NCBI GenBank assembly: GCA_020721225.1
Contig: DYNE01000028.1
Span: 1 to 32,024, forward strand
Length of the DNA: 32,024 bases
From: Pelodictyon luteolum
GTDB lineage: Bacteria; Bacteroidota; Chlorobiia; Chlorobiales; Chlorobiaceae
Reading direction: 5' to 3'
Below the pieces are notes generated by a model. It saw nothing but the letters and a program-made list of their open reading frames with translations, did not search any database and was not told where the DNA came from. Within the stretch, counting starts at the first letter, position 1. The number at the start of each line of letters is the position of its first letter. Positions 94 to 28,728 of the stretch are shown here, one piece after another. The translations under genes and the position numbers were made by a program.

Positions 94-155
94 CATTCGC
101 GGAGCGAATGATACTCCCGGTCGTACCCGACCGATACTCCCGCGAAGCGATACTT
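94..155. repeat. Three mini-hairpins separated by a constant ATACTCCC
   Basis: Three small inverted repeats of different sequence are each followed by the same octamer. CATTCGC-GGA-GCGAATG (94-110) precedes ATACTCCC (111-118). GGTCG-TACC-CGACC (119-132) precedes G plus ATACTCCC (134-141). CGC-GAA-GCG (141-149) precedes ATACTT (150-155). A second set lies at 9258-9322. The block starts two bases after the group II intron end and finishes about 25 bases from the stop codon of the ATPase gene. Function unknown; a REP-like or RNA-level element is possible. Confidence 0.6.
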
Positions 156-9257: not shown

Positions 9258-9322
9258 CGCGAAGCGATACTCCCAATGCGAAGCGAGCTATACTCCGCAA
9301 TGCAACAGCGAGCATACTCCCC
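9258..9322. repeat. Second set of mini-hairpin/ATACTCC units
   Basis: CGC-GAA-GCG (9258-9266) followed by ATACTCCC (9267-9274), then a 15-base GCGAAGCGAGC-containing spacer and ATACTCCG (9290-9297), then a similar spacer and ATACTCCCC (9314-9322). The first unit is identical over GCGAAGCGATACT to the unit at 142-154. It lies between the SDR start and the glycosyltransferase stop. Confidence 0.55.
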
Positions 9323-9372: not shown

Positions 9373-9410
9373 GGATTATAAGCGCATTACTGAAACAGAA
9401 TTGGAATCAC
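9373..9410. repeat. Dispersed 38-bp repeat, copy 2
   Basis: It begins GGATTATAAGCGCATTAC and ends GAATTGGAATCAC. It matches 23360-23397 at 32 of 38 positions, and all six differences are transitions. It contains the stop codon of the glycosyltransferase gene. Confidence 0.65.
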
Positions 9411-10249
9411 TCGTGGCTGGCGAACAGCTTGAAGCCCATGAGACTGGTCATGGACTGGACGGCGCAATTGATGCGGCCGATAAACATATCGAGGTCAGTT
9501 ACTTCATGGCGCTTGTCCGATGCCACATGTTCCATGAACTCAAGAAACTGCTGCTGACGCATCTCACCTATTCTCGACGACCAGGAAACATTTGAAATAC
9601 GAAAGGCGCAGAGCGGTTCGTCAATCATATAGAGATCACCGTGTTTGAGCAGTTGTATCCAGAAATCGAGATCGATGGTATAAGGCACAACGGCACTGTA
9701 CCCGTTTATTTTTCCGATGAGTTCCGCAGGATAGAGCCCGCATACCGGCTCGCCGATGATATTGGTGCCCATGCGGATCATTTTTCTGATCACGTCAACC
9801 GCTTCGTTACGGCCTTTGGCGACAAAGTTGACTTTTTTAATGAGCGATTTCCCTTCAGGATCGATGATGGTGCGGGGACAGCTCACAAGACTTATTCCTG
9901 CAGAAGCGGAACTGTCGAGAACAGCCACCTGCTTTTCAAGACATTCCGGAAAAAGAATATCGTCTCCGCAAACGAGCTTGACGTACCTGCCCCTGACATC
10001 GCTGATCGCCCGGTTCCAGTTTTGCTCGGGCCCGAGATTGACAGGGTTTCTGAAAAGCTTGATACGAGAATCGGAAAATGATGCCGCAATATCAAACGAG
10101 TCGTCGGTTGATTGATCGTCGTATATCAGAAGTTCAAAATCGGAAAACGACTGCCCGAGAATCGAACGGATGGTATCGCCGATAAAACGGGAGTTATTGT
10201 ACATAGGGACAGCGACCGAAACCAGTGGCCGGTTATTGGAAAACATCAT
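9407..10249 (-). CDS. Family 2 glycosyltransferase
   Basis: A 280-residue GT-A fold enzyme that would move a sugar from a nucleotide sugar to a lipid or polysaccharide acceptor at the cytoplasmic face. Motifs: [10 protein letters not shown] at the N-terminus, [13 protein letters not shown] (nucleotide binding), [11 protein letters not shown], and the metal-binding Asp pair in KLVCGDDIL. The C-terminal region has DEPLCAFRI, common in this family. The start ATG at 10249 has GGAGGT about 6 bases upstream; the frame extends further but overlaps the neighbouring gene without a ribosome site. It lies 38 bases after the pentapeptide-repeat gene and looks like the last gene of that operon. Donor and acceptor unknown. 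Confidence 0.9.
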
Positions 10250-10287
10250 AGAATACCTCCATAAAAACAGCTCTTGAGCCCTCGGGC

Positions 10288-11514
10288 TCACTCATGAATA
10301 AATACGGCATCATGCCGTTCGGCCCACTCCTGATTGGCCTTTTTGCCGGTATCGAGGATGGTAGAGGAGGAAACCTTAACGCCGTTAAGACGCGCCCGGC
10401 TGAGATTTGCCCGCCAGAGATTCACGCCGGAAAGATCGGCTCCTCCCAGATCGGCCTTTTCAAGATTCGCTTCGCGCATATCGCACCCCGAAAGATCGGC
10501 GTTGCGAAGGTCGGCATCGAAAAGATCGGCCTTCCTGAAACTCGCACCCTGCAGCCAGGCATGGGCAAGATCGGCGTAACTGAGATTTTTCTGATCGAAC
10601 TTCGCTTCACGGAGATTGACCTCCATGGCCCGGTCGCGCTTGCGCATGTCGTTCCAGGCAAATACCCCGGATTTCAGCTTTTTATAAAGCGCCCGATCAT
10701 AGACGACAGCGGCGCTGGAACCGGACATGCGCCACAGGTTCCCCTTCGATCCGCTTTTCCCCGACTCAGAATTTCCGACGTTTCCCGATACCGTCGGCAA
10801 AACCTGACCGGCACCAGCCATTCCGGCGACCGCGTGAACGGATTCAGGCGCATCGTCGAAAAACTCTGCACGATGCTCCGACGCCCACGTCTGCGAGGCA
10901 TAGCTGCCCGAAGCCAGCACCGTAGATGGCGAAACCCTGGTGCCGCTGACGTCCGACCTGCTCATGTCGGCCCGCCAGAGGTAGGCCGCTCGCAGATCGG
11001 CACCTGTAAGTCGTGCACCGACAAGCGTCGCTTCACGAAAATTCGTTTCCTGGAGATCGGCGCCGCTGAAGTCGGTGCCGGTGCAGTCTGCCTTCTTGAG
11101 TACCGCAGTCTGCATAAAGGCGTCTTTGAACGAAGCGGCCTCAAGCACCGCATCTTCAAGATCGGCATTATGGAGCCGTGCTTTATCAAGCGAAGCCCTG
11201 ACCAGCAAAACCGAACGAAGTACTGCCGAGTCCAGTCGGGCATGATCGAGCCGGGCTTTACTGAGATCGGAACTGCCGAGATCGGCACCGGAAAGATCGG
11301 CGTAGCTCAAGTCCGCCCCTCTCAGGTTCATGCCCTTAAGCTGCGCCCCGGAAAGATCCGCGACACGTCCGCCGAGCCCGGCCCTGTAACTGTTCCATGA
11401 TTTCACGCCGGTTTTCAGCGAATTGAAATCAGCGGTATTGAAGGCCGAGGCAGAAACAGGCAATGCCGGCACGAGAGCGCAGAAAAGAAGAATCGAACGG
11501 ATATTATTTCGCAT
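10288..11514 (-). CDS. Exported pentapeptide-repeat protein, internally duplicated
   Basis: A 408-residue protein with a signal peptide ([24 protein letters not shown], cleavage near residue 24) followed by two blocks of A(D/N)Lxx repeats, about 28 units in the first and 17 in the second. These should fold as right-handed quadrilateral beta-helices. Each block is framed by the same caps: LKxGVxxWNxxR before (about 33-44 and 280-291) and VSxSTxLxxGxxAxxxWAxxHxAxF after (about 194-219 and 380-405). A Gly/Ser-rich linker (about 225-268) joins them. ATG 11514 overlaps the upstream stop by 11 bases, suggesting coupled translation; GTG 11541 is an alternative. Pentapeptide proteins do not have a common biochemical role, so function is open. 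Confidence 0.85.
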
Positions 11515-22845: not shown

Positions 22846-22879
22846 AAAAAAAGCCGGAACCATAACTGTGGACCGGCCT
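22846..22879 (-). terminator. Intrinsic terminator upstream of pstC
   Basis: On the minus strand GCCGG (reading from 22877) pairs with CCGGC (22857-22853), with an inner CCA/TGG pairing, followed by seven T (22852-22846). It would end transcripts coming from the pstS side and implies that pstC has its own promoter between 22846 and 22706. Confidence 0.65.
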
Positions 22880-22969
22880 TATTCCATTTCCAATACAACT
22901 ATGCTGTTACCCGAAAATCCTCCCCACCAACAAACAGGCACCTGTTTCGAACCGAGAAACCCGCCATCC

Positions 22970-23345
22970 AGCCCACGGCTCACCGCACACCGCTATCCCC
23001 GTCTTCCCTGGCTACTGAATACCGACTTCCGGCCCATCACCCACGGCTAACGGCCCACAATCTTTCCATCCGTGAAAATCCGATTTCAATCAGCGGGAAC
23101 CGCGTTCTTCCTCTTCATGGCTGGATGGCGAGATAGCTGGATCGCTTAACACAATCCCCCGGTCAACCCTCATCCATCAATCTGTGCTAATCCGTGAAAA
23201 TCCGTGGGCAACTCTTCCTCTTCAATTCCCCCCGGCCCACAGTTAGCCGCTCACAGCCCACAATCTCCCCCCCTCGTCACATCGACACTTCTTCTCTGGG
23301 TTTTCCTGCTACCGGCTACTGAATACTGGCCCACCGCCAACCTCT
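22970..23345. repeat. Gene-free stretch of degenerate intergenic repeats between pstS2 and pstC
   Basis: No convincing gene is seen from 22706 to 23425. The section contains recurring motifs: CGGCTAACGGCCCACAATC (23045-23063), a variant at 23233-23262, two exact copies of TCCGTGAAAATCCG (23069-23082 and 23191-23204), and two of GGCTACTGAATAC. The GGCCCACAG/CGCTCACA words recur at 27088-27249. The composition is pyrimidine-rich on the plus strand and carries no coding signal. Confidence 0.55.
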
Positions 23346-23359
23346 CATCGCTTGGCCTT

Positions 23360-23397
23360 GGATTGTAAATGCATTATTGAAATAGAATTGGAATTAC
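23360..23397. repeat. Dispersed 38-bp repeat, copy 3
   Basis: It begins GGATTGTAAATGCATTATTG and ends GGAATTAC, 28 bases beyond the stop codon of the second pstS. It is 32/38 identical to 9373-9410. Confidence 0.65.
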
Positions 23398-25353: not shown

Positions 25354-26478
25354 TTAGAACTTCACCACTACGTCAGCCTGGAGCAGGTGATTGGTTGCTG
25401 TTTCGTCATCGATCTTGCTGAAGTTATAGTACGTCGCGCCAACCGTCATATTCTGTACGAGATGATAGGTCGCTCCAATCTTGAACCCCTCGAGGTCAGT
25501 GAAGCTGCCGCCATTACGATCGGAGTCGGTGATATCGGCAACAGCATCCTCTTCAATGCTGACATATTCGCCACTGACAGCCCACTGACCTGGACTCTTA
25601 GCATTACCGATCTGAAGACCGATCAGATATGAATCTCTTTTGGCATCATCAACAGCGCTGAAATCCGCATGCTCTGCTGTGTTGAAGGCATACTGGCCAT
25701 AAACCTTCCAGGGAAGCGTTTCGGTAATGGGACCACCCACGCTTGCAAAAAACTCGACGATATTGAAATCCAGACCCGGTTTGAAAGCAGAATCTGTCGG
25801 TTTCGATACCGCTGAAGTTGATACCGAGTAACCGTCAAGATGCACGAAATCATAGTAACCGGCACCGACCTTGAAACCCAGATCGTTCACTTCACCGGTG
25901 TAAGCAAGCTGACCGGCCACGATATAGGCATCCTGCTCTTTTGTTGTCAAGCTGCTGTTCTCATCGATCACATAGTAACCGGCAACTGCAGTGATACCGT
26001 CTTTCTCCTTGCCGTCAGCATCCTTGCCGTACTGCAGGGTAGCGCCCTCGAAAGTGAGATCGCCATCCCAGACAAGATCTTTCGTAACGATAAGCGTCTT
26101 GGCTACATCTCTTTTACCAAGAATGACATTGACCTGTCCATCGAGAAACATCGGATGGTAGTCGATGTATGCTTCGTTCAGATAGATGCCATCGGCAGCA
26201 AACAGATCGTCAAACGTTTCGTTACGAGAGGTCGGCTCAGTACCGCCGGTCGAAAGCTGTACACCGGCAGAAAGTTCCTCATTGATCCAGGGATAGACAC
26301 CAAAACGGACGCGCATACGGTGGCGGTCGCGACTGTGATCATTATCGTTGGCTTCTGTATCTTTAAACGTCGATTCGTAACGGTAGCGGATATCGCCTTT
26401 CCAGTTCCAGTCGACAGCTTCAGCGTTGTTGAAACCGAGAGCCGCTGCCAGACCGACCAGCAAAGTGACTTTTTTCAT
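25354..26478 (-). CDS. Outer-membrane beta-barrel porin (Porin_5-like)
   Basis: A 374-residue outer-membrane protein with a signal peptide (MKKVTLLVGLAAALGFNNAEA), alternating amphipathic beta strands, many Tyr and Gly residues, and the C-terminal Phe (VVVKF) typical of barrels inserted by BamA. It fits the Porin_5-like group. The ATG at 26478 is chosen because it gives a normal signal peptide; the frame extends 17 codons further. Its place just before two pstS genes suggests an anion or phosphate pore, as for OprP/OprO elsewhere, but this is inferred from context, not from pore residues. A 143-base gap separates it from pstS. Confidence 0.88.
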   Translation of the reverse strand: MKKVTLLVGLAAALGFNNAEAVDWNWKGDIRYRYESTFKDTEANDNDHSRDRHRMRVRFGVYPWINEELSAGVQLSTGGTEPTSRNETFDDLFAADGIYLNEAYIDYHPMFLDGQVNVILGKRDVAKTLIVTKDLVWDGDLTFEGATLQYGKDADGKEKDGITAVAGYYVIDENSSLTTKEQDAYIVAGQLAYTGEVNDLGFKVGAGYYDFVHLDGYSVSTSAVSKPTDSAFKPGLDFNIVEFFASVGGPITETLPWKVYGQYAFNTAEHADFSAVDDAKRDSYLIGLQIGNAKSPGQWAVSGEYVSIEEDAVADITDSDRNGGSFTDLEGFKIGATYHLVQNMTVGATYYNFSKIDDETATNHLLQADVVVKF

Positions 26479-26664
26479 AATTAGAATAAGATTGGTTAGT
26501 GTGATGCGTTCATGAATTCTCACATGCATTCCTGCATATTCCTGATTCGTGAGCTAATCTAACACTCCTTTTGTTGAGGAATTATTACGGAAGTGCTACA
26601 AGATTGCAAACAAAACCGGATCACCTGTGATCTGAAACGTTTAACCCCTGGGCGGCGCCCTTAC

Positions 26665-26925
26665 CTACAGCTTGATATCCGTCACGATTACTGCTCCGTG
26701 AAACCGGCCGTCAGGAAAAATCACTCTTCCCTTCGAGTTGATGACGATATGGGGAAAACTGTTTTTTTCAAGCATAACGAGCAGCTTTTTGAGATCTTTT
26801 CTCCCTGAAGGCTTGATGATCAAATCCGCAACGGCATTGACTTTATCGACTTCGTGGTGTTTGAGCTCATCATGAATAAAAAAATCCCCATCGATATCAG
26901 CCCGCAATTCGTCGAGACGCAGCAT
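26665..26925 (-). CDS. Short MurB-like FAD-domain fragment (86 codons)
   Basis: The protein resembles the first part of the FAD-binding domain of UDP-N-acetylenolpyruvoylglucosamine reductase (MurB): ADLIIKPSGRKDLKKLL (about 34-50) and PHIVINSKGRVIFPDGRFHGAVI (about 58-80) parallel the MurB segments ADLLVxPxxxEDL and the LGxGSNLLVxDxGFxGxVI signature. The Gly-Ser-Asn that contacts the cofactor is changed to NSKG. The reading frame stops soon after, so the rest of the enzyme is absent. GGGAGG precedes the second ATG (26925) by 6 bases, a good ribosome site, which argues for translation. It may be a decayed copy or a small stand-alone protein. Confidence 0.55.
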   Translation of the reverse strand: MLRLDELRADIDGDFFIHDELKHHEVDKVNAVADLIIKPSGRKDLKKLLVMLEKNSFPHIVINSKGRVIFPDGRFHGAVIVTDIKL

Positions 26926-26997
26926 AAGCATCCTCCCGTTGGTTTTGATTCAATTCCCTCCTGATCGCCAAACCGACGCATCTCTAAAAGACCCAAG

Positions 26998-27028
26998 GGA
27001 CAAAAAGGACCAATAGGACAAAAAGGAC
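26998..27028. repeat. Two direct copies of GGACAAAAAGGAC
   Basis: Exact 13-base copies at 26998-27010 and 27016-27028, separated by CAATA. They lie in the gene-free stretch 26926-27254. Confidence 0.7.
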
Positions 27029-27087
27029 TAAAATATCCCGATGCCTCCTCGATTTTCTCCCGCAATGCAAAGCAAAACCATCTTCTC

Positions 27088-27249
27088 CGCTCACCCCCTA
27101 CAATCTTCATCAATCTCCCTGCCCACCGCCTACTGCCTACCGCTCACAATCCCCCCTCTCACATCCTTCATCAATCCTCCGGCCCACAGCTAACGGCCCA
27201 CCGCTCACAATCTTCCTGCCCACCGCCCACAATCCCACCGCCCACATTC
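27088..27249. repeat. Degenerate CCCACCGCTCACAATC-type repeats
   Basis: This stretch is built from variations on GCCCACCGC-(C/T)CACAATC, with GGCCCACAGCTAACGGCCCA in the middle. It shares words with 22970-23345. No reading frame with coding character crosses it on either strand; it lies directly beyond the stop of the GNAT gene. Confidence 0.6.
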
Positions 27250-27254
27250 TTCTA

Positions 27255-27923
27255 TTACTGTTTCGTCATATCCGTCAGCAACTTTCTTCTTTTGCACTCG
27301 AGCAGCGAGTGTATCCCTTCGGTCAGTTCACGGTAGATACGGCTTCTGCTGTCCTTAACCCGGCTGTAGAGTTTCAGGATATCGAGTGTAAGGATGATTC
27401 TGGTGGAGCTGCAGTTCAGGTCACCGAACAGATGCCGGCCGATCACTTCGAATCCAAGTACTCTGGTATGAAAATTAAGCGGAGAGTGCGGCTCGTTTTC
27501 AAAAACATCGGTAATGAAATGAGTGTAATCGCGCCCGACGACCTCTTCGGTAGCCGCACGCATCAGGCGCAACGCTATGCGATGGTTCCGGCGGTATTCT
27601 CCGGCAATCATGAATCTGCCAATCTCGACATACTGACCAAGCTGTTTGAGATAATCGATATCGATACCCGGCATAAACGTAACCTGGTACTCATCAGGAA
27701 GCGCAAGGGGAGGGTCGTACAGCAGTCTGAGTACCCCAACCGGACGACCGTTGAGCCTGGCCAGAAACCAGGAAAACGGCTGTCCCTCGGATAGCTCTTC
27801 GGGAATCTGCGACTGAGCACTGCTGATCCAGTTTTTCTCGTTCTGGAAAACCTGCTCGATTACCGTAATAACCCCCTGGCGATCTTCGCTGTCCAACACC
27901 CGCTGAACGGTTATCGCTGACAT
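27255..27923 (-). CDS. GNAT-fold acyltransferase, FeeM/autoinducer-synthase-like
   Basis: A 222-residue protein with the acyl-CoA N-acyltransferase fold. The strand-turn PFSWFLARLNGRPVGVLRLLYD (about 49-70) is typical of GNAT, and the following VEIGRFMIAGEYRRNHRIALRLMRAA region resembles the E-x-x-R motif of N-acyl amino acid and homoserine-lactone synthases (FeeM-like). A C-terminal helix extension (about 183-222) is Arg/Lys-rich. AAGGAG lies 5 bases before the ATG. It follows a PlsC-type acyltransferase gene by 40 bases, so an acyl-lipid or N-acyl amino acid product is plausible. Substrate not determinable. Confidence 0.7.
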   Translation of the reverse strand: MSAITVQRVLDSEDRQGVITVIEQVFQNEKNWISSAQSQIPEELSEGQPFSWFLARLNGRPVGVLRLLYDPPLALPDEYQVTFMPGIDIDYLKQLGQYVEIGRFMIAGEYRRNHRIALRLMRAATEEVVGRDYTHFITDVFENEPHSPLNFHTRVLGFEVIGRHLFGDLNCSSTRIILTLDILKLYSRVKDSRSRIYRELTEGIHSLLECKRRKLLTDMTKQ

Positions 27924-27963
27924 GGCATCTCCTTTTGCGTTATAGGTTTTATGAACAGACTGA

Positions 27964-28728
27964 TCACGATACGGGAAGCGGTTCCCGATAGGTTTTACCG
28001 CAAAGACCGGAAAGCTGCCGCATCACGAAACAGGTTGTTTCAACCGCCAATGCGTGCAGTTGCCGACTGCTGTCGTTATTTTCAGGAGTTCCTGCCTTGA
28101 TGGCGCGATAGAGTTTTGAACTCTCGTGAAAATCAAGAGGCGCTCCGACATTGATCATCATTCGCCCAAAGGCGGGAACCCGCCCTTTTTTCCGTCTTGC
28201 AGCGAAGTCTATGCCAACTGGAATGACCGGCATGCCGGAGTTGAGAATGATATGGCCTACTCCCGGCTTTGCCCTGGCAAGGAATTGCGGATGCGGGTTC
28301 CGTTTTCCTTCGGGAAAAATGCCGATACTACCGCCGCTCTCAAGTTTCCGGCAGCAACGGTCAACGGTATTGAGAGGAAGTCGTGATGGGCGTTTTCGTT
28401 CGATCAACGGTATCGTCGAGCGCTTGTGATAGACGTAGAGCGGATCAATCATGTTCATCAACCATCCGATAACGGGAATCTTTCCGTACATCCAGTCGAT
28501 AACGAAACTTATTGTACGCCCTCCGAGATGAAACATGAGAAAAACAGGCACCAGAAGAGCTTCAAGGGAGTTGCTGTGATTAAAAACATAGATAGCCGCG
28601 CCTCTCCCGGCCGAAAGGTTATCAAGACCATCCGCCCTGATCAGAAAAAAATTCGGAACCATCAGCATTCTCAGAAGCAATGCTTTTCCGGAATTCAGAT
28701 AGGGAAGGGGTTTGAAGATGGTTTCCAT
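27964..28728 (-). CDS. PlsC-type lysophospholipid acyltransferase with altered HX4D motif
   Basis: A 254-residue member of the PlsC/LPLAT family that would move an acyl chain to a lysolipid in the inner membrane. Counting from ATG 28728, the catalytic block is NHSNSLE with His51 followed by four residues and Glu56 instead of the usual Asp. The second block is IGIFPEGKRNP (about 136-146), which binds the acceptor phosphate, and a third is VIPVGIDF. An in-frame ATG at 28752 would add a Lys-rich MKKGKEKN. It precedes the GNAT-fold gene, and the pair recalls the two-acyltransferase logic of ornithine-lipid synthesis (OlsB/OlsA), but neither is a clear orthologue. Confidence 0.85.
   Translation of the reverse strand: METIFKPLPYLNSGKALLLRMLMVPNFFLIRADGLDNLSAGRGAAIYVFNHSNSLEALLVPVFLMFHLGGRTISFVIDWMYGKIPVIGWLMNMIDPLYVYHKRSTIPLIERKRPSRLPLNTVDRCCRKLESGGSIGIFPEGKRNPHPQFLARAKPGVGHIILNSGMPVIPVGIDFAARRKKGRVPAFGRMMINVGAPLDFHESSKLYRAIKAGTPENNDSSRQLHALAVETTCFVMRQLSGLCGKTYREPLPVS

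Follow-up and report, generated by a model that had tools for sequence, protein, structure and literature searches.

BOX elements of Streptococcus pneumoniae are modular repeats built as boxA-boxB-boxC. The RUP element of the same species is a 107-bp MITE that occupies TA sites and is thought to be moved by IS630-Spn1 (PMC2229807). REP palindromes moved by RAYT proteins carry a GTAG or CGTC tag at one end (PMC3733652), and the short palindromic repeats of Volvox carteri organelles fall into several hairpin classes, are often nested, and are regarded as selfish DNA (PMC2670323).

Here, we describe arrays of mini-hairpins in a 2.62-Mb Chlorobium-type assembly of 144 contigs (G000), beginning with contig C88, whose 32,024 nt are referred to as the window. 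The P-type ATPase encoded in the window is 93% identical, over the best segment, to its counterpart in Chlorobium sp. Tobar13m-G12. The explanation we favor, with a probability of roughly 0.8, is that the mini-hairpins serve as modules in the interior of a mosaic, nonautonomous MITE-like element that would be moved in trans and whose units would be turned over via their linkers. The element is 0.3 to 1.0 kb long, and most arrays lie inside it. The preliminary description of the hairpins missed this larger context, a transposable element. Among the titles and opening parts of abstracts listed from the open-licence literature, none concerned ATACTCC arrays or such an element in Chlorobium. The features of the window are as follows.

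22 to 92, + strand: 3' end of a group II intron (Rfam RF00029, 53.9 bits, E = 4e-8)
94 to 110, + strand: palindrome A1, CATTCGC-GGA-GCGAATG, 17 nt, recognized from the sequence; first slot of the order A1-A2-H9
111 to 117, + strand: linker ATACTCC
118 to 133, + strand: palindrome A2, CGGTCG-TACC-CGACCG, 16 nt, recognized from sequence and fold
134 to 140, + strand: linker ATACTCC
141 to 149, + strand: mini-hairpin H9, CGC-GAA-GCG, 9 nt, with 30 copies among 215 segments
156 to 178, + strand: R end of the window element, GCATATTTGTATTGGAAATGGAA, located by flank alignment
179 to 181: TNA site TTA, coinciding with the stop codon (TAA) of the P-type ATPase ORF (179 to 2848, - strand)
9258 to 9320, + strand: second array, consisting of H9, linker, B2-like palindrome, linker, B3-like palindrome, and linker, with weak stems
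9384 to 9406, + strand: L end of the second element, GCATTACTGAAACAGAATTGGAA
22882 to 23393: third, complete element copy (R to L), without an ATACTCC array

The three palindromes joined by ATACTCC at positions 94 to 155 are real, as first described. Folded as RNA, this segment formed three hairpins with a free energy of -19.5 kcal/mol (z = -2.55), and 1 of 200 shuffles folded equally well. The linker that had been called constant is so over 7 nt, ATACTCC, while an eighth base, C, varies with the palindrome that follows; the third linker of this array is shortened to ATACTTG. The group II intron 3' end, which is the sole RNA family match at the gathering level in the window, directly abuts palindrome A1. 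Positions 60 to 93 are identical (34/34 nt) to G000:C82:7142-7175, a site next to an ORF encoding an RVT_1 plus GIIM maturase, and the intact target site of the intron would fall within an ATACTCC linker. Since the start of the contig cuts through the intron, just one side of the first element can be seen.

Linker counts showed that the arrays are real and not a product of chance. The sequence ATACTCCC occurred 6 times in the window compared to 0.45 expected, with four occurrences within the two arrays and the remaining two (2738 and 6157) in long ORFs, and it occurred 238 times genome-wide compared to 42 for the reversed pattern. The genome-wide search proposed in the preliminary description, run with tandem linkers (ATACTCCN9-19ATACTCC), returned 195 matches versus 0 for the reversed pattern and revealed a feature dispersed through the genome. 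In 224 kb scanned for exact linkers, 140 of 192 successive same-strand steps had a spacing of 16, 23, 24, or 25 nt, and 36 were at least 60 nt. Tandem pairs exceeded chance in 2 of 64 other Chlorobium genomes, G080 (13 pairs) and G004 (11 pairs); the other 62 genomes held 24 pairs in total versus 25 in the reversed control, which is the level of chance. Spread beyond the genus was rejected, as 16 genomes outside Chlorobium gave one match (G039), with a spacer that was not palindromic by eye. Viral contigs were likewise set aside: they contained at least 120 linker-pair stretches, and among 93 segments from the loci examined, none had 80% or more mirrored pairing. One linker cluster, at C1:4952, which has a nonpalindromic spacer and no element end within 900 bp, is probably a coincidence.

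A central claim at the outset was that the stems differ wholly in sequence and still pair. Over 65 distinct inter-linker segments (145 copies), 273 of 422 mirrored positions (65%) were Watson-Crick pairs, compared to 117 (standard deviation, 9; maximum, 146) in 1,000 shuffles, and when the register was slid, 15 to 30% of cells paired. Unrelated stems therefore do pair, well above the random rate given by shuffling. Scoring against seven module consensus sequences, which covered 186 of the 215 segments, yielded 44 pair-breaking, 21 G-T, and 6 compensated cells. Of the 44 pair-breaking cells, 23 came from slot A2, which commonly has either CGGGCG or CGGTCG, and the choice of A2 consensus affects this figure. 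Types B2 and B3 (AGCAATGCGAAGCGAGCT and GCGATGCGACAGCGAGC) pair through short outer stems only. Changes inside slots mostly break pairs, so the stems are not visibly repaired by compensation. The proposal that pairing rather than sequence is selected consequently survived in one respect, the pairing of unrelated stems, and not in the other, the upkeep of pairs at each copy (44 breaking versus 6 compensated cells). The differing stems are different modules, not one covarying stem.

Parsing of 89 arrays, with one mismatch tolerated per linker, resolved these modules into two ordered series. Subsets of A1-A2-H9 in that order accounted for 33 arrays (21 complete), and ordered subsets of B2-B3-B4 accounted for 40 (24 complete); in three of the remaining arrays, the B2 slot was occupied by a different palindrome, and the other 13 were composed differently. 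H9 stands before 23 of the 24 complete B2-B3-B4 arrays. Within those 24, the B4 slot was filled by B4a in 14 cases, by a one-base-shorter B4a in 3, and by B4b in 7, B4a (CGTTCGC...) and B4b (CGAGCAC...) being unrelated palindromes that share one slot. In composite elements, the A and B arrays face in opposite directions, separated by a spacer of very variable length that often contains GTTCTGA-like repeats.

Comparison of orthologous places revealed differences of whole units. Between contig C80 of G004 and contig C1 of G000, where flanks are 89 to 90% identical, a one-unit gap of 25 nt corresponds to B2 plus linker, present in G000, and a three-unit gap of 63 nt corresponds to A1-A2-H9 plus linkers, present in G004; one ATACTCC is retained in G000 where G004 has the three units. 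Gaps of other sizes occur in the same alignment, including a 14-nt gap that clips the outermost B-array linker in G000, and the other odd-sized gaps lie outside the arrays. Between contig C12 of G080 and contig C43 of G000 (96.5 to 97% identity), a 16-nt gap corresponds precisely to a single H9 unit, 162 extra nt are present in G000 near the R end, and gaps of 7 and 3 nt lie in the spacer. In total, there were three whole-unit differences at two orthologous places, all unpolarised in direction, with unit loss and unit gain indistinguishable. Deletion between short direct repeats that a palindrome brings into contact is an established process, and it would give whole-unit differences of this kind.

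These differences bear on an alternative in which each palindrome is itself a tiny mobile element that duplicates ATACTCC, with repeated insertion into the same linker building the array. Such an element would account for the constant linkers that flank unrelated palindromes, for the B4a/B4b slot swaps, and for the single linker without a unit in G000 C1. Independent insertions would hardly be expected to leave 73 of 89 arrays as ordered subsets of two series, however, and the empty state follows equally well from loss between direct repeats, making this alternative quite unlikely.

At another place, an alignment of G080 contig C5 with window positions 26851 to 27400 covers only the gene on one side. 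The adjacent intergenic stretch of the window (26957 to 27271) is rich in CCCACCGCC-like repeats and contains CCGCAATGCAAAGCAAAACC, which resembles a decayed array module; G080 has linkers at that place. G080 and G000 are 96.5 to 97% identical at the C12/C43 locus (L565) and 72 to 73% identical at the locus pairing C5 with window positions 25676 to 28596 (L566), a contrast that may reflect either horizontal transfer or a mis-binned contig.

The element surrounding the arrays was delimited by aligning their outer flanks. Two shared ends emerged, designated R (...GCATATTTGTATTGGAAATGGAA) and L (...GCATTATTGAAATAGAATTGGAA); they are imperfectly inverted relative to each other (TTCCAATTCTATTTCA... 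and TTCCATTTCCAATACA...) and thus provide the terminal inverted repeats expected of a MITE. The merged R/L end pattern occurred 82 times in the genome and 0 times in reverse. Twenty-six end pairs were 238 to 1,033 bp apart, and a further 33 ends were unpaired. The longest ORF in any of the 26 copies was 139 aa, and as in MITEs, the element is multicopy and, judged by ORF length, free of a transposase gene. An equal triplet stood on both sides in 23 of the 26 pairs, always TNA (TAA, TTA, TCA, or TGA), whereas 20,000 re-pairings gave 9.4 matching triplets on average and never more than 18. The triplet was TCA or TGA in 2 of these 23, and the pairs with unequal triplets were those at C117, C27:48769, and C90. 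TNA followed 80 of 85 ends (TAA or TTA in 73 of 85), a count that leans on the search, since the end patterns, with 3 mismatches allowed, already included the first and last base of TNA, leaving its middle base as the sole independent evidence.

Target duplication in these 23 pairs is accompanied by one full empty site, a combination characteristic of MITEs. The site, for the copy on C4, was found in G001, where one alignment, 88% identical, continues across the junction and has a 1-nt gap located 2 nt past the TAA; a weaker empty site for the same copy is present in G048 (69%). In the search with joined flanks, C4 alone gave an empty site, and matches for C27, C62, and C63 covered one side of the junction and were uninformative. 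For the window copy, which is missing most of the ~60 nt usually separating the array from the R end, a relative (L112) reads ...GACAAG TAA at the aligned place and then continues with other sequence, constituting a one-sided empty site. The third window copy has TTA on both sides (22879 to 22881 and 23394 to 23396). The C4 copy that is the source of the full empty site has no array. Array-less copies (window 22882 to 23393; C4:6876-7830, locus L310) are filled with repeats of other kinds, CCGTGAAAATCCGTGGGC and GGCTACTGAATACCGACT among them, which in the C4 copy are partly in tandem by eye.

Because 7 of the 23 matching-triplet pairs contain no linker, the array is not needed for movement. 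Among 87 clusters of at least two exact linkers, both ends lay within 900 bp of 28, one end lay within that distance of 34, and none did for 25, some of the last group being near the edge of the examined stretch or beside an end too decayed to recognize. These numbers make it hardly credible that the element's transposase uses the arrays as subterminal binding sites, a role for which the inversion of linkers towards the two ends would be suited: linkers would not then be missing from 7 of the 23 pairs, nor ends from the vicinity of 25 of the 87 clusters.

In 15 of 85 cases, an end fell exactly on the stop codon terminating an open frame 60 or more codons long. Among other TNA sites within 300 nt of ends, 89 of 1,303 did so, an enrichment of about 2.6-fold. 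The 15 comprised 5 R and 10 L ends, so the element lies behind genes in both orientations. This answers the question of orientation relative to genes raised with the original observation, and it argues against a strand-specific RNA role. The second element of the window is one such case, with the TCA directly after its L end (9407 to 9409) forming the TGA stop of an ORF at 9407 to 10291 (- strand); no R end of this element was found. The spacers of its array, CAATGCGAAGCGAGCT and GCAATGCAACAGCGAGC, pair weakly, and positions 9258 to 9322 showed no more structure than their shuffled versions, 127 of 200 of which folded equally well (z = +0.44). The reported recurrence at this position was confirmed for the linkers and the module order and not for strong hairpins.

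A function of the arrays in RNA or DNA, whether as a bidirectional terminator, a protector of mRNA 3' ends, or a series of dyad binding sites at intervals of about 24 bp, is unlikely. It would be consistent with the fold of the whole element on C103, which as RNA reached -167.8 kcal/mol on one strand (z = -2.6; 1 of 100 shuffles equal) and as DNA gave z = -4.1 on the other; that other strand as RNA reached -129.5 kcal/mol, a value that has no shuffle control. The linker spacing of 16, 23, 24, or 25 nt and the position of some elements on stop codons would also fit. However, terminator- and promoter-like sites were at the shuffle level in the one element scanned, pair-breaking changes are common, both element orientations occur, and the second window array is unstructured. 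Four element loci gave no Rfam match up to an E value of 0.1, and membership in a known RNA family was rejected.

Similar ends were found around insertion sequences (ISs) of related genomes. In G019 and G023, like ends enclose an IS of 1.1 to 1.2 kb with two overlapping ORFs, and those of G019 match Pfam HTH_23, HTH_33, and DDE_3, identifying the IS as IS630-type. In both loci (L338 and L339), the transposase is split over the two overlapping frames between MITE-like ends. When L ends were compared to the IS 3' end, 25 of 26 copies beat all 500 shuffles (median, 39/52 nt identical), and 19 of 26 R ends did so against the IS 5' end (median, 30.5/52), indicating ends held in common with an IS630-type IS. 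This comparison of 26 copies supersedes one made with a composite L end, which matched 43/53 nt of the IS, and an R end that was not above the shuffle maximum. IS630 elements duplicate TA and are not known to duplicate TNA. Among the complete ISs of relatives, the one in G019 fits a TNA repeat and the one in G023 does not. Because the repeat here is a TNA triplet instead of the 2-bp TA duplication of the IS630/RUP type, we describe the element as a MITE whose ends are IS630-like and place it outside the IS630/RUP group that duplicates TA. No complete IS with such ends was found in the 144 contigs of G000, which contain four distant IS transposase matches of 28 to 58% identity (C58 in two pieces, C130, and C141); the three loci checked had no element-type end.

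Many palindromic units, five Y1_Tnp matches in G000, and a linker-plus-hairpin layout resembling tag plus stem could instead point to REP/BIME-like repeats, moved single-stranded by a Y1 (RAYT/TnpA-REP) transposase that recognizes a hairpin and its tag. We regard this as very improbable. Stretches around the five Y1 matches contained no adjoining array, the nearest being about 4 kb away on C27, where, as on C84, the Y1 gene is near a contig end and its flanks are partly visible. Of 41 genomes, 21 had Y1 matches, and 2 had arrays in excess of chance. In the arrays, which were located by their linker, the foot of the palindromes carries no GTAG or CGTC tag, ATACTCC/GGAGTAT standing beside each palindrome instead, and the units sit inside an element with a TNA triplet. 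CGTC repeats have been reported in Chlorobi, but the arrays described here are without that tag at the foot. Membership in REP/BIME was rejected on the missing tag and on the absence of an array adjoining the Y1 genes (two of them near contig ends), and membership in CRISPR was rejected because the spacers are palindromes recurring at many loci and the constant repeat is 7 nt. The initial judgment that this did not look like a known REP or CRISPR unit was supported: neither the tag and Y1 neighbor of the one nor the unique spacers and long repeat of the other were found.

A separate observation from the Y1 searches concerns a type I restriction HsdR frame of 1,331 aa (G000:C40; L232:860-4855, - strand) that contains a Y1 transposase domain at residues 408 to 483, in frame between HSDR_N and the SWI2_SNF2/ResIII motor, with repeated NGGLENPPPFQENG-like peptides around it. 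Y1 matches in open frames of more than 1,000 aa were also present in G004, G006, G010, and G033.

Under the preferred reading of a mosaic MITE-like element, an IS630-type transposase acting in trans would move the whole element, and a duplicated TNA would restore the stop, so insertion on a stop codon would be tolerated. Further DNA may be acquired in the interior, as the 162 nt at C43 suggest. The 7-nt linkers would serve as direct repeats brought together by a palindrome, and replication slippage or template switching could then remove, add, or swap whole units, yielding differences of the kind seen between relatives. The hairpins would in that case be substrates of unit turnover rather than a sequence-specific RNA signal. 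More tentatively, and less likely than not, the element could be viewed as a "bead-swapping" cassette, an IS630-like mosaic MITE with TNA duplication in which the 7-nt linker is an exchange point and beads are gained, lost, or replaced by unrelated palindromes. Any bead that folds back could bring two linkers together, and beads might be selected for foldability during replication and not for host function.

Unrelated palindromes in one slot, together with whole-unit differences at orthologous places, provide a bacterial case in which the idea of precise deletion, insertion, and replacement driven by hairpins between short direct repeats could be traced in natural populations. The element shows how the interior of a MITE can turn into a repeat mosaic, and it points tentatively to a TNA-duplicating, IS630-like group with copies that coincide with stop codons more frequently than neighboring TNA sites do.

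The known kind to which this element belongs is the MITE, and its mobile-element frame is ordinary; what is unusual is unit-wise turnover with unrelated palindromes in each slot. RUP is likewise a short, nonautonomous element of intergenic regions whose ends resemble those of an IS630-type IS, but at 107 bp with TA sites, it differs from the 0.3- to 1.0-kb element here, with its TNA triplet and mosaic interior of palindrome arrays. BOX shares the modular organization and variable number of internal units, whereas the present arrays join different palindromes by one linker within an element with inverted ends. REP/BIME repeats with RAYT are similar in having clustered palindromes in both orientations; the arrays here differ in their constant 7-nt linker, their location mostly inside a MITE-like element, the lack of a tag, and the lack of a cognate Y1 gene seen alongside. 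The Volvox carteri repeats also comprise several classes of short hairpins, but the constant piece there is the hairpin loop (TAAA/TTTA), while in this bacterium it is the linker between hairpins.
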